Source: Spirosoma oryzae
Lineage (GTDB): Bacteria; Bacteroidota; Bacteroidia; Cytophagales; Spirosomataceae
DNA: 64,000 bases
Reading direction: 5' to 3'
Assembly: GCF_003002825.1 (NCBI RefSeq)
Contig: NZ_PVTE01000023.1
Location: 1-64,000, forward strand
Part shown: piece after piece, positions 53,661-61,582 of the stretch
Numbering within the stretch: position 1 is the first letter of the stretch
Layout of the letters: each line of letters starts with the position of its first letter
Made by a program: the position numbers and the translations under genes
The notes under the pieces: model-generated
What the model saw: the letters and a program-made list of their open reading frames with translations, nothing else
Databases searched by the model: none
Told to the model about the DNA's origin: nothing

Positions 53661-53897
53661 GTAGAGACGCAACCCATTGCGTCTCATTACGCGCCAGCCA
53701 ATCCGGCAAAATTTAGCGACCGCACAACCATCCGGGTACGGAGACGCAAGATATTGCCGCACCGGCGGACCGGTCTCTACATTTGCGCCAGCTTTTTGTT
53801 GACTAACCAAACTACGGCGTTGAAGCACAACCATCCGGATGTTGAGACGCAAAATCTTACCGCACCGGCGGTCACCGTGGCGCGGACCGGTCTCTAC
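53661..53897. repeat. AGACGCAA/CACCGGCGG palindromic cluster
   Basis: Two related units, 53661-53780 and 53827-53897. The first opens GTAGAGACGCAACCC and ends CCGGTCTCTAC. The second repeats TTGAGACGCAA, CACCGGCGG and GGTCTCTAC. Shared words also occur at 55495-55643. The last unit ends inside the 3' end of the YdeI-like gene. There is no coding function. Confidence 0.65.
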
Positions 53898-54427
53898 AAA
53901 TTTCTAAAATGGCGGATCATAGCGCCGTAACCCAGCTTCATCGACAAACCTGCAATGGCCTGACTCAGTCGCTTTTCACGGGTTTGTACCGTCTTTGCGC
54001 TGTCGATCCAGTTGCTAAAATATTGCTGATGACCACGGGGCAGCGTCTCGAAAAACGCCAGCGCGTCGGGTGCGTCGGCCAGACAGGTCAATAAATCTTC
54101 CGACAGAGCCAGTTCCGATTCATCGCGTTCCAGCTCGACCTGTATGGTAGCCCCCGCTTCCTTGCCAAGGCCCCGGCGCATCGTCGCATTGATCGCGAGA
54201 ATATACGGAGCCAACTCACCGGTTTCGTCAGGCTCAGCGGACTCACCCATCGGCACTAAACCCACCTGCTGAATGCTAACTGTGTCCAGTCGGCCTTTCA
54301 CGCGAAACGCTTTTTTCTGCCCTCCGCTCAGCAAATTGGCAACGGCAGCCGGTATGTCGATGTACGTCCATCCTGTCTTCTCTCCCTTCGCGCCGAACCT
54401 GCGGAGCATCGCTGTAAACGTTACCAT
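53894..54427 (-). CDS. YdeI/OmdA-like DUF1905 protein
   Basis: A 177-residue protein with an N-terminal DUF1905 beta-barrel-like domain (about 1-100: TGWTYIDIPA, RVKGRLDTV, ILAINATMRRGLGK) and a C-terminal OmdA/YdeI helical part (LPRGHQQYFSNWIDSAKT). Relatives are annotated as YdeI/OmpD-associated proteins linked to resistance to some peptides. The gene begins 3 bp after the WYL regulator stop, so the two are one transcription unit. Confidence 0.82.
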   Translation of the reverse strand: MVTFTAMLRRFGAKGEKTGWTYIDIPAAVANLLSGGQKKAFRVKGRLDTVSIQQVGLVPMGESAEPDETGELAPYILAINATMRRGLGKEAGATIQVELERDESELALSEDLLTCLADAPDALAFFETLPRGHQQYFSNWIDSAKTVQTREKRLSQAIAGLSMKLGYGAMIRHFRNL

Positions 54428-54430
54428 CTC

Positions 54431-55459
54431 TTACTGTTCGGGTTGACGATAATGCTGTAAGGTTGCCTGCAACGACTCCTGCATGGCCTGTACCAGGCTA
54501 TCGGGTTTTACAACCGTCAGGTGTTCGCCGTATGAACGCAGATGCATCAGCAAATCACGGTTGGGGGCCAGCCGCAGCCGAACAACGCAGGCATCGTCGG
54601 TATCCTGCACGACTTCCTGCGTCTGGTGAATGGGTTTGGCCTTTACGTATCGCCCAAACAGCGGACTGAACGACAGCAGTATTTCCTCGACGGGTCCGCT
54701 GCTGTCGGTGATGCCGTAAATGTGCTCGAACAGTTCACTGACGTTGTCCAGCACCACCGACGGCACGTTGCACAGGTCGAGCGCAATATCCAGATCGCTC
54801 ATTCGGTCAAGTGCAAACGTGCGTTCTTTTTCCGTCGCTTCGTCGTAGCCGATCACGTACCAGCTATCGGCCACTTCGCGCAGCAGGATCGGGTGAAGCG
54901 TCCGTAGCTTGTCGGGCGTCTGGGGCTGGGCATCGGTTGTTTCGTGCTTCCGGTAGTGGAACGTAATCTGCCGGTTCTGGTTGATCGCCCGGATCAGCAC
55001 CGGCACGTACTGCCGGTTACCGCCCAGCACGCGCTCCTCCACGTACACGACCCGGCGCATCATCGGCTCGGATTTTACCTCCCGGATAATGTCGAGACTT
55101 TGCCGGACGCGCTGCAAGGCGTTGGCCAGTTCGCCCGCTACCGACGCACCCTGCGTGGCCGTCAGCACTTCACGCGCGTAGTCGAGCGCTTCCATATCGT
55201 CGGGACTCAGCATCAGGCGCAGAAGCCGAAACTGGGGGTCGGTGTAGTAGTAGCCGTTGCGCCGTTTGTCGTATGCGATGGGCGCGTCGTGGTCTTCGCG
55301 CAGCCGCTGAATGTCTTTCTCCAGCGACGACATCGACCGGATACCGCATTTATCCTGACACACCTCGAACAGGCGCTGCTTGGAATATTGCCGGGGGTAG
55401 CGACTGATAATCTCGTCGATGATGCGGTAGCGCTGAAACGCCGAGCGGGTTATGGGCAT
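54431..55459 (-). CDS. WYL-domain transcriptional regulator
   Basis: A 342-residue regulator. An N-terminal winged helix-turn-helix (about 1-75: SLEKDIQRLREDHDAPIAYD) is followed by a WYL domain (about 150-230: ITFHYRKHE, LHPILLREVADSWYVIGYDE) and a C-terminal WCX-like extension. WYL proteins sense ligands, often nucleic acids or nucleotides, and regulate DNA-repair and defence genes. It is divergent from the gene set 55749-58511, and is operonic with the YdeI-like gene. Regulation of the adjacent PARP set is likely but unproven. Confidence 0.9.
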   Translation of the reverse strand: MPITRSAFQRYRIIDEIISRYPRQYSKQRLFEVCQDKCGIRSMSSLEKDIQRLREDHDAPIAYDKRRNGYYYTDPQFRLLRLMLSPDDMEALDYAREVLTATQGASVAGELANALQRVRQSLDIIREVKSEPMMRRVVYVEERVLGGNRQYVPVLIRAINQNRQITFHYRKHETTDAQPQTPDKLRTLHPILLREVADSWYVIGYDEATEKERTFALDRMSDLDIALDLCNVPSVVLDNVSELFEHIYGITDSSGPVEEILLSFSPLFGRYVKAKPIHQTQEVVQDTDDACVVRLRLAPNRDLLMHLRSYGEHLTVVKPDSLVQAMQESLQATLQHYRQPEQ

Positions 55460-55494
55460 GGGATACGGTTTACAGTATTCGGTTTACGGTTTTC

Positions 55495-55643
55495 TGTAGA
55501 GATCGCACCGGCGGACCGGCAATCCATTGCGTCTCACCGCCGGATGGTTATATCGCCGGACGGCTTTTTCATACGCGTCAGCTATCAGACCAGACGATAA
55601 CAAAACCATCCGGGGGCGGAGACGCAACCCATCGCGTCTCTAC
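55495..55643. repeat. AGACGCAA palindromic cluster in WYL/PARP intergenic region
   Basis: A repetitive unit that opens TGTAGAGATCGCACCGGCGG, contains ATTGCGTCTC and CCGCCGGATGG, and ends GACGCAACCCATCGCGTCTC followed by TAC. It occupies half of the 289-bp gap between the divergent WYL and p169 genes. The remaining 105 bp, AT-rich, probably carry the promoter of the PARP set. Confidence 0.6.
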
Positions 55644-55748
55644 TATCCCCAAAAATTCAGAAAAAATTTTTATCGAAAAAGAAGAACGTAAAAAGATTAC
55701 GTTTTGCCGGGTAGAACTTTGTTCTGTGAATTTTAAACAACACTACAA

Positions 55749-56258
55749 ATGATGACGGCTTATCACACTCCATCCCCGTTGCTTTCTACTGGTTTCCCAC
55801 CGGTCATTCGTACGAAAGCGTCGACACAGGCTAGTGCATCCGTATCGCATCTGATGCGCTGGCAAGAACCGCTGGCCACGCGACTACGGTTTCGCCACAA
55901 CCTGCCGGGACGGGTGGCCAACCGTCTGCTGAACATCGAACTGGGTTTGTTTCTGCTGGCGGAATTACTGCCAATGGCGCCGGCAGAAGCCCTGCCCAAT
56001 CTGCTCAACGGGCAGGGCATCGTGTACCGCGAACGCCCCGTCTGGACACCACATCAGCACAAGATGCTGAGCCGGGCGCGGATTCTGCTGGCCCCCTACC
56101 AGGATCGAGCCGTATGGTACAGCGCGCTGGGCAAATACGCAACCATGAACAAAAACCTGCGCCTGTTTACCACAACCGGTCGCGGTGGCCAAAATCCCGA
56201 TGCCAGTTCCTACGACCGCCGTGAGCGCATCCAGCTCTACGGCTGGGCGTTAGCCTGA
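55749..56258 (+). CDS. Unknown protein, paralogue of the next gene (p169)
   Basis: A 169-residue protein of unrecognised family. Residues about 50-140 match the following gene product in order: LLNIELGLFLLAEL, then VWTPHQHKMLSRARILL, then RAVWYSALGKY. The N-terminal 40 residues are low-complexity (many Thr, Ser and Pro). The C-terminal tail is basic and Arg-rich. It is the first gene of a co-directional set with p132, the WGR-PARP and p82. Function unknown. A role as PARP substrate, partner or regulator is speculation. Confidence 0.7.
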   Translation: MMTAYHTPSPLLSTGFPPVIRTKASTQASASVSHLMRWQEPLATRLRFRHNLPGRVANRLLNIELGLFLLAELLPMAPAEALPNLLNGQGIVYRERPVWTPHQHKMLSRARILLAPYQDRAVWYSALGKYATMNKNLRLFTTTGRGGQNPDASSYDRRERIQLYGWALA

Positions 56259-56263
56259 ATACG

Positions 56264-56443
56264 GTTTACGGTATTCGGTAGCCAGTTTTCGGCCACTGGC
56301 CTGTGTAGCCCAGACGTCTACGTCTGGTGGGCGCGACAGCGACCAAAATAGTTACCCCATACCTTGGCCTGACGGCCTCCAGACCGAGAGGTCTGGGCTA
56401 CAGGAGGCAACTCACCGTAAACGGTAAACCGAATACCGTAAAC
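56264..56443. repeat. Composite palindromic element between paralogues
   Basis: The outer 15-bp inverted repeat GTTTACGGTATTCGG (56264-56278, complement 56429-56443) brackets a GTAGCC-type element (56305-56401, opening GTAGCCCAGACG and closing TCTGGGCTAC). The whole fills the gap between the two paralogous genes and resembles a small non-autonomous element. Confidence 0.6.
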
Positions 56444-56480
56444 GCAATCCCCCCTTTTGAACAACTAAACAACAACCCTC

Positions 56481-56879
56481 ATGAACACGACCCCATTCAC
56501 GACACCCGCAATCAACCGCCGACCGGGTAAGCTGTCGGCGCGGCAGTTACTCGACGTCGAACTGGGCTTATTTCTGCTGTCGCAGTTACAGCCGGCCGCT
56601 TCGCCCGACACACTGCCCATTCTGCTGAGCCAGTGTACCTCGCTGACCGATCAATCGGACTGGACACCCCGCCAGCGTAAACTGCTCAACCGGGGTCGGC
56701 AGTTACTGACGCAGTTCCAACACCGGCCCGCCTGGTACGAGCTACTGGACCGCTACGTATCGGTGTCAAACCCACTCCGGCAAGCCTACGATGTCAGCGC
56801 TGACCGAAGTCGATTTACCGAGAAAAGCGTGGGCTTCTTTCGGAATCGACTGCGCACCCTGCAACAGGTAATGGCCTGA
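56481..56879 (+). CDS. Unknown protein, paralogue of the preceding gene (p132)
   Basis: A 132-residue protein related to p169. Shared blocks are LLDVELGLFLLSQL, DWTPRQRKLLNRGRQLL and RPAWYELLDRY. It lacks the N-terminal low-complexity segment and has its own C-terminal extension (FFRNRLRTLQQVMA). It lies 47 bp upstream of the WGR-PARP gene. The tandem pair suggests duplication and perhaps two roles in one complex. Confidence 0.72.
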   Translation: MNTTPFTTPAINRRPGKLSARQLLDVELGLFLLSQLQPAASPDTLPILLSQCTSLTDQSDWTPRQRKLLNRGRQLLTQFQHRPAWYELLDRYVSVSNPLRQAYDVSADRSRFTEKSVGFFRNRLRTLQQVMA

Positions 56880-56926
56880 CCAACGACTACACATCCACCA
56901 TCCTCTTCACGCATCCCACTCCACCT

Positions 56927-58261
56927 ATGTTTCCCGCCCTGCTTCAATCGATTACCAATCGCATCAACCCTGGCCAGGCACTCGCGCAGATCACGCCAAC
57001 GGCAGCAGCTACGACAGCTTCACCGACCGCGCCACCGGTACGCCACTATCGGGTTGCCAAGCTGATTATGGTGACGGCCGCCAACAACAATAAATTCTAC
57101 GAAATGCGCGAACGCGACGATCAGACGTTCAGCGTTCAGTACGGCCGCGTCGGTGGCGCGAGCAGCGTGGCAACCTACCCGATGAGCCAGTGGGACAAGA
57201 AGTTCCGGGAAAAGGTTGCCAAAGGCTATGTCGACCAGACACACCTGTTTGCGGAGGCAACAACTGCCGTCGACGCCAGTACGATTCAGGATACCGCCGT
57301 ACGAACGTTTATGGGGCGACTACTTGAACTGGCCAGCCAGTCCATTCGCCAAAACTACATCGTTACCGCCGAGCAGGTTACCCGAAAACAGGTCGATTCG
57401 GCCCAGCAACTGATCGACGAACTAACCGACCAAATCAGAGCGGGGCTGGCGATGGATACGTTCAACGCCCGGCTGCTGGATCTGTTCAAAATTATCCCCC
57501 GCCGAATGCAGCGGGTCACCGAACACCTGCTACAGGAACTGCCACAGTCGGAAGACGCCATCCAGGCACTGCGCGACCGCCTGGCCAGCGAACAGGACAC
57601 GCTCGACGTGATGCGCAGTCAGGTCGAACTAAACCAGTCCGACGACCTTAGCCCTGTCCAGCAACCAGATCTGCTGGCATCGATGAATCTGGCCGTCGAA
57701 CCCGTAACGGATAAACGGGTGCTGAAGCTAATCAAGCTGATGATGGGCACTGACGTCGACAAGTTCGAAGCCGCGTTCAGCGTATCGAAGCACGATACCG
57801 AAACCGCGTTCAACACCTTTGTCGCGAATCAGGCCGATCAGAAAACGCAGTTACTGTGGCACGGCAGCCGGAGCGAAAACTGGATTTCAATTCTGAAAAC
57901 CGGCCTGGTGCTGCGTCCGGCCAATGCCATTATTACCGGCAAGATGTTCGGCTATGGTATCTACTTCGCCGATCAATTCAGTAAGTCGCTCAACTACACC
58001 TCACTGCATGGTTCGGTATGGGCCAACGGCAAGCAGCGGGAAGGGTACCTGGCGATCTACGAAGTGCACGTCGGCAAACAACTCGTCGTAGACACCCACG
58101 AGAACTGGCACTACCAGCTCGACGCCAACCGGCTGAAAGCCATCGACGCTACCTACGATTCAGTCTTTGCGCAGCGGGGTGTCAGCCTGTTAAAGAACGA
58201 ATTCATTGTCTTCAATCAGGCACAGTGCACGATTCGGTACATGGTCAAAATCAACTGCTAG
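56927..58261 (+). CDS. Bacterial WGR-domain poly(ADP-ribose) polymerase
   Basis: A 444-residue protein that transfers ADP-ribose from NAD+. A WGR-like domain spans about 40-110. Its signature here is YGR (72-74) in FSVQYGRVGG, with Tyr in place of the usual Trp. A helical PARP-regulatory-like segment (about 124-200) includes LFKIIPRR. The catalytic domain (about 255-444) has the complete H-Y-E triad: His312 in LLWHGSRSENW, Tyr346 in FGYGIYFADQFSKSLNY, and Glu425 in KNEFIVFNQAQ. This is the PARP1-type triad, so poly-ADP-ribosylation is possible. The start is preceded by the p132 gene, and p82 follows 1 bp after the stop. Such PARPs are rare in bacteria. No eraser enzyme is visible. Confidence 0.93.
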   Translation: MFPALLQSITNRINPGQALAQITPTAAATTASPTAPPVRHYRVAKLIMVTAANNNKFYEMRERDDQTFSVQYGRVGGASSVATYPMSQWDKKFREKVAKGYVDQTHLFAEATTAVDASTIQDTAVRTFMGRLLELASQSIRQNYIVTAEQVTRKQVDSAQQLIDELTDQIRAGLAMDTFNARLLDLFKIIPRRMQRVTEHLLQELPQSEDAIQALRDRLASEQDTLDVMRSQVELNQSDDLSPVQQPDLLASMNLAVEPVTDKRVLKLIKLMMGTDVDKFEAAFSVSKHDTETAFNTFVANQADQKTQLLWHGSRSENWISILKTGLVLRPANAIITGKMFGYGIYFADQFSKSLNYTSLHGSVWANGKQREGYLAIYEVHVGKQLVVDTHENWHYQLDANRLKAIDATYDSVFAQRGVSLLKNEFIVFNQAQCTIRYMVKINC

Positions 58262-58262
58262 T

Positions 58263-58511
58263 ATGAATCCTATCCGCAAGAAAGTAACCCTGGCATCGGT
58301 ACGCTCAACCGCCACTACGCTCATTCTGGCGCAGGGCGTAACAACGACCTTAGCCGTAAAGATGGCCCTACGCGACCGAGGGTATTGGGCCAGACAGGCC
58401 GACATTTCGCAAAAGCTAATCCGGATAGCCCTGCGCGAAGGCTGGTCTGTCAACGACAACGGCACCTTCCGCGTCTACTACTTCCCAACGCTGCCCGCCC
58501 TCCTAAACTAA
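58263..58511 (+). CDS. Small unknown protein coupled to PARP (p82)
   Basis: An 82-residue basic protein. The central part (TTLAVKMALRDRGYWARQAD, then ISQKLIRIALREGWSV) looks helical, and the end is beta-like (GTFRVYYFP), so a small winged-helix fold is possible. It begins 1 bp after the PARP stop, so translational coupling is likely. It may be a PARP partner or a DNA-binding co-factor. Function is unknown. Confidence 0.65.
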   Translation: MNPIRKKVTLASVRSTATTLILAQGVTTTLAVKMALRDRGYWARQADISQKLIRIALREGWSVNDNGTFRVYYFPTLPALLN

Positions 58512-60649: not shown

Positions 60650-61582
60650 ATGAATCTGTATCTAGGCGTTACGAATTGCAGCTGGTTTGATTACCTGAGT
60701 GCGATCAATCCGGAGGATGTTAACTTCTGGCAACCCGGCGGAAAGAGTGCATTCAGAGTGCTGTCACTAAATGGTGTATTTCTGTTCAAATTGAAAAAGC
60801 CCTATAACGGTGTTGGCGGCCTAGGTTTCTTCAGAGCACAAACTCAGTTGCCCTTGTCACTCGCTTGGGACGCTTTTGGTGTGCGAAATGGCGTATCTGA
60901 CCTTGACCACTTCAGAACAACTATTCAAAAGTATCGGGGCGATAAAGAGCGTAACCCAACCATCGGCTGCATTGCCTTGACCGATCCGGTGTTTTTCCGA
61001 CGCGAAGACTGGATACCTGTTCCGGTCGACTGGCGTACAAGCATCGTTCAGGGGAAACGCTACAGCACTGACACGGCAATTGGATCAGCTTTATGGCAGC
61101 AGGTTCAGGATAGACTGATTTGTTACCGGAAAACGCTGCCAGCAGGACAAAACATGTTAAGCGTTGACGAGCCTTCACCCCAATATGGTAACTCAGTTCT
61201 ACAAAAGGTACGAATTGGTCAGGGAGCCTTCCGACTCTCAGTCATTGATGTCTATACGAAGCGTTGTGCTATCACTGGCGAAAAGACATTGCCCGTACTG
61301 GAAGCCGCTCACATCAAACCTTTTGCGGAAGCAGGGCCTAATCAGACGTCAAACGGGCTGCTGTTACGTTCCGACATGCACAAGCTGTTCGACGACGGTT
61401 ATATCACCGTAACTACTGACTACAGAATTGGAGTAAGTAGTCGCATCAGGGAAGAATTTAGTAACGGAAAAGAGTACTACCAGTATCATGGTAAGCCTTT
61501 ATCCGTGCTGTCATTGCTAGAAAGAGATAAACCTTCATCGCTTTATCTGGACTATCACAACACCACTATTTTTCGCCCTTAG
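60650..61582 (+). CDS. HNH endonuclease with EVE/PUA-like N-terminal domain
   Basis: A 310-residue protein. The N-terminal ~150 residues (LGVTNCSWFDYL, EDVNFWQPGGKSAF, FLFKLKKPYNGVGGLGFF) resemble PUA/EVE-like modified-base readers. The C-terminal HNH core is CAITGEKTLPVLEAAHIKPF, then NGLLLRSDMHKLFDDGYI. This layout fits a modification-dependent (type IV-like) restriction endonuclease. It is AT-richer than the surroundings. Upstream, 223 bp of AT-rich DNA hold the promoter. Downstream are decayed toxin-antitoxin genes. Confidence 0.82.
   Translation: MNLYLGVTNCSWFDYLSAINPEDVNFWQPGGKSAFRVLSLNGVFLFKLKKPYNGVGGLGFFRAQTQLPLSLAWDAFGVRNGVSDLDHFRTTIQKYRGDKERNPTIGCIALTDPVFFRREDWIPVPVDWRTSIVQGKRYSTDTAIGSALWQQVQDRLICYRKTLPAGQNMLSVDEPSPQYGNSVLQKVRIGQGAFRLSVIDVYTKRCAITGEKTLPVLEAAHIKPFAEAGPNQTSNGLLLRSDMHKLFDDGYITVTTDYRIGVSSRIREEFSNGKEYYQYHGKPLSVLSLLERDKPSSLYLDYHNTTIFRP

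Follow-up and report, generated by a model that had tools for sequence, protein, structure and literature searches.

The cellular role of bacterial PARPs is an open question in the field, and it is raised anew by a set of six genes in the window, i.e., the 64-kb stretch of Spirosoma oryzae contig NZ_PVTE01000023.1 analysed here (genome G000; genomes and loci of relatives are coded G and L). The set comprises the genes of a YdeI/OmdA-type protein (53894-54427; Pfam DUF1905 8.1e-15, OmdA 1.9e-15) and of a WYL-WCX regulator (54431-55459), both on the minus strand and 3 bp apart, followed on the plus strand by the divergent genes p169 (55749-56258), p132 (56481-56879), a WGR-PARP (56927-58261) and p82 (58263-58511), whose ATG is separated from the PARP stop by one base (58262). 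An earlier note, made from the letters alone, had given all six genes and both gaps these same positions and had regarded the set as a possible damage-response or defence system, an interpretation that is partly supported overall. The PARP has a constant partner, p82, and a conserved DNA switch beside the WYL regulator appears to control the gene set. Known already are PARP enzymes of this class, WYL regulators of this class and the Z domain found in p169 and p132, and the locus would fall among WYL-controlled damage and defence loci.

Within the family, p82 lies just downstream of PARP in 33/33 PARP-bearing genomes, the window genome included, and a PARP without p82 occurs in none of them. 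A genome scan returned p82 within ≈ 450 bp downstream of PARP at 30/30 loci, 21 of them from Spirosomataceae and nine from Saprospiraceae, Bernardetia/Flexibacter and other Bacteroidota. Of 395 evenly sampled genomes of the phylum, six (three genera) have a PARP over the cut-off, and in each of them p82 follows it; p82 was found in eight of the sampled genomes, a weak match in G318 counted, and the overlap of both genes has a hypergeometric P of 5.5e-12, which ignores relatedness and includes the weak G318 match. As points against a strict dependence of PARP on p82, one has to count the PARPs found without it in G880, in viruses and on plasmids. PARP occurs in three genomes of a class sample of 345, and in one of these, G880, it stands without p82 in a prophage-like run of small same-strand genes; p82 accompanies one of ten viral-contig PARP loci and matches none of the 20 plasmid records with PARP. 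Among 50,697 phage records, 15 PARP matches and a single p82 match were obtained, the latter in LR756500.1 (462 kb), with a PARP 9 kb away in the same record. The phage-record PARPs belong to Cellulophaga, Klebsiella, Stenotrophomonas, Xanthomonas and other phages, and the ten viral contigs, taken from IMG/VR (L154-L163), encode WGR-PARPs with an intact HYE triad; in L155-L158 and L160 the PARP is followed by a gene of ≈ 236-254 amino acids, which PHROG marks as hydrolase-like in L155, and either directly after this gene or one position further on by a gene of ≈ 174-181 amino acids.

The partner itself proved as unrecognised as the earlier note had claimed: neither Pfam nor NCBIfam assigns it a family over the cut-off, and PADLOC and PHROGs give no family either. 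Its AF2 model (pLDDT 91.7) folds into three helices and a two-strand wing (HHH-EE), and the top Foldseek matches are winged helices of the BlaI/MecI/ArsR/Fur type (best E 0.019, TM ≈ 0.6), none of them at E ≤ 0.001. Two Saprospiraceae loci encode p82 as a fusion with a WGR domain (Pfam 1.1e-5 in L115, 1.7e-4 in L125), and in L121-L123 p82 is joined to a tail that appears WGR-like by eye, without a Pfam match. On the modelled fold, p82 is probably a small winged-helix, DNA-binding partner of the PARP.

The PARP, the only one in the window genome and a relative of the human DNA-damage enzyme of that name, is a WGR-PARP, as had been stated (Pfam PARP 1.2e-27, WGR 1.1e-5), with a WGR domain at residues ≈ 51-105 (25.9 bits versus a Pfam cut-off of 22; YGR at residues 72-74), a helical region at ≈ 150-280, and an ART domain at 281-443 carrying the catalytic triad H312/Y346/E425. 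Residues 150-358 align with PARP1 (phmmer), without a Pfam PARP_reg match, and dN/dS is 0.067 versus L100. The combination of WGR and ART, YGR motif, HYE triad and missing PARP_reg match is shared with the bacterial WGR-PARPs of Cytophagales clade 1.1, as described in passages of PMC5966428; partner gene, operator and WYL/Z context go beyond the account of domains, phylogeny and distribution given there. With DarTG, mentioned in a passage of that paper, the locus may have in common an effector that transfers ADP-ribose, but here PARP and WGR take the place of DarT, and p82 is a predicted winged helix instead of a macrodomain antitoxin. The earlier remark that no macrodomain or PARG eraser is seen holds for the macrodomain, which was not found in the genome (PARG, PF05028, was not searched), but an ADP-ribosylglycohydrolase-family gene (PF03747, 1.6e-38) resides on another contig (G000:C5:7858-8730). 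The N-terminus of its product looks like a signal peptide by eye, and the protein is perhaps non-cytosolic.

How might such an enzyme be switched on? The WYL protein (Pfam WYL 1.2e-14, WCX 8.2e-13) gave no N-terminal Pfam match up to E 1 when a winged helix-turn-helix was looked for; the closest solved structures to its WYL-WCX part are 7u02, 7tzv, 9cu3, 9pfq and 8tp8 (PDB sequence matches, E 1.8e-6 to 4.6e-6), followed by a weak match to PafC (E 0.0019). According to the DriD preprint (PMC12340889), 7TZV is DriD of Caulobacter, here matched at E 1.9e-6. By sequence, the WYL-WCX region can be classed as DriD-like, related to the DriD and PafBC DNA-damage regulators, and the protein is a probable damage-sensing regulator. 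The gene is under strong purifying selection (dN/dS 0.036 versus L100), as is Z.

The palindrome AACGTAAAAAGATTACGTT (55685-55703, plus strand) is proposed to be the WYL operator. It is the sole match in the window allowing up to three mismatches; the motif recurs in 51/53 WYL/Z intergenic regions, 104 of 105 phased sites sit ahead of Z, PARP or p82 genes, and a separate operator belongs to each of two p82 copies. In all 49 testable sites TTTG follows exactly 15-18 nt past the operator, a phasing seen in sequence, and in the window it belongs to the box TAGAACTTTG (55712-55721, plus strand), which is -7-like by the Bacteroidota promoter consensus. The DriD site, ATACGAC-N7-GTCGTAT, covers the -35 region at a fixed distance from the -10 (PMC12340889). 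Both sites share the CG-N11-CG spacing and a position over the upstream promoter region at a constant distance from the downstream box, as predicted from sequence for the present loci; they differ in half-site letters, spacer, phylum and promoter type, and the targets here are Z, PARP and p82. Further palindromes of the form GAGACGCAA...TTGCGTCTC are repeated at 55525-55640 and 53670-53880, and likewise in the intergenic regions of relatives.

Z was found in 36/36 genomes of the genus, a near-universality that points to a response to stress or a role in repair. Mapped on the WYL tree, the intact PARP requires 14 changes, of which supported branches force at least nine; of the 24 WYL-Z loci that lack a PARP, 11 have retained p82 (one such genome, G112, has PARP-p82 elsewhere), and in L044, L064, L048 and L050 the catalytic Tyr has become His or Arg and the helical region is lost, with the frames still open beside p82. 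Such frequent loss and decay with p82 left behind speak for a costly effector; we therefore favour, as somewhat more likely than not, a regulon that damage or invasion induces and in which the PARP is the effector. The WYL protein would sense single-stranded DNA and control the promoter, DNA ends would activate the PARP, and p82 would be a DNA-binding director or restrainer. As a tentative model, which we consider a fair way short of likely, PARP-based DNA-damage signalling may be envisaged: the DriD-like WYL factor, on sensing single-stranded DNA, would turn on the PARP, and p82 would be its dedicated winged-helix subunit, targeting it to lesions or foreign DNA. PARP and p82 would form a two-gene module plugged into the WYL-Z regulon and into a type XIII retron, both genes also occurring in a megaphage.

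The same asymmetry of loss, suggestive at most, would suit a toxin-antitoxin-like pair, in which the PARP is a toxin that depletes NAD or modifies a target, while p82 serves as its antitoxin or autorepressor, and the 1-bp coupling in the window fits this as well. The p82-WGR fusions, however, suggest a common role at DNA lesions and not neutralisation, and with p82-less PARPs in viruses and a prophage-like region, and operators belonging to p82 itself at two copies, this explanation appears rather unlikely.

The relation to immunity is best discussed from p169 and p132. Their paralogy, asserted in the earlier note, is borne out (44% over 87 amino acids, E 1e-21), but they are not unrecognised, as was also asserted: both match Pfam pPIWI_RE_Z (PF18155; 1.4e-17, PADLOC 6.3e-19, and 9.5e-15, respectively). 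These are the only two Z matches in G000, both stand-alone, with open frames 173 and 136 amino acids long, and not fused to a DinG-like helicase; we know of no earlier case in which a pPIWI_RE_Z domain standing alone was placed in a regulated context. The pPIWI RNaseH domain PF13032 was not found in G000, 14 controls being silent as well, yet the profile scores 8.7e-24 on the pPIWI protein L039 (G187). In G188, Z forms the N-terminal end of the 1135-amino-acid protein L040 (L040:2447-5854; PprDinG 3.1e-187), and a REase protein (L055) was identified in G202; island genes lie ≈ 2-3 kb (G188) and 12 kb (G202, on G202:C63) from the WYL-Z-PARP locus. The Z domain is what the locus has in common with the three-gene pPIWI-RE island (PADLOC PprDinG/PprRE/PprPIWI), of which PprDinG is the helicase and from which Z is known (PMC3702460).

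At two loci, i.e., at few, PARP-p82 sits in an operon classed as immune by PADLOC, beside the reverse transcriptase (RT) of a type XIII retron. L115 carries on one strand HEAT-ARM/WGR_XIII (5.7e-28), SWIM_XIII (3.9e-166), PARP, p82-WGR and RT_XIII (5.2e-154), and L125, a 4-kb contig, a partial PARP, p82-WGR and RT_XIII (1.1e-154). The remaining seven loci outside Spirosomataceae showed no RT among those neighbours scanned. Unlike the retron, the window has no RT, SWIM or HEAT-ARM protein among its six genes by PADLOC (no search for RT was made elsewhere in the genome).

Retron adjacency and pPIWI-RE proximity would both be at home in an abortive-infection defence, in which the WYL protein holds Z and PARP-p82 off until a phage infects, in the style of BrxR and BREX. 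WYL precedent exists (PMC9122601 and PMC9122588): BrxR is a WYL repressor that also binds inverted repeats, and here, too, the WYL gene adjoins its putative targets together with an inverted repeat (compare PMC9122601). In contrast to BrxR-type loci, no BREX or other complete system is recognised among the six genes, where PADLOC reports WYL and Z parts only, and the Z core is near-universal in the genus; with the purifying selection on WYL and Z, this looks like a housekeeping response and leaves abortive defence doubtful. A chance neighbourhood of unrelated genes, to which the variable YdeI/OmdA linkage (33/55 fetched WYL loci) and the outer flanking genes changing from genome to genome could point, is contradicted by the PARP-p82 and operator counts, the hypergeometric test and the divergence of WYL and Z in 55/55 resolved loci, and is very improbable.

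For one bacterial PARP there is now a constant partner from a family without a name, together with a predicted pathway of induction and a putative operator that is precisely placed. Where the pair stands next to type XIII retron genes, an effector role is suggested, and with it a connection of ADP-ribosylation and DNA-end sensing to bacterial immunity. In the open-licence literature searched, no description was found of the PARP-p82 pair, its phylum-wide coupling, the operator or the retron insertion. Two genes downstream of p82, at 60650-61582, an HNH endonuclease is encoded that matches PADLOC HNH models (6.6e-22 and 2.9e-16), one of which carries the label type II restriction enzyme.
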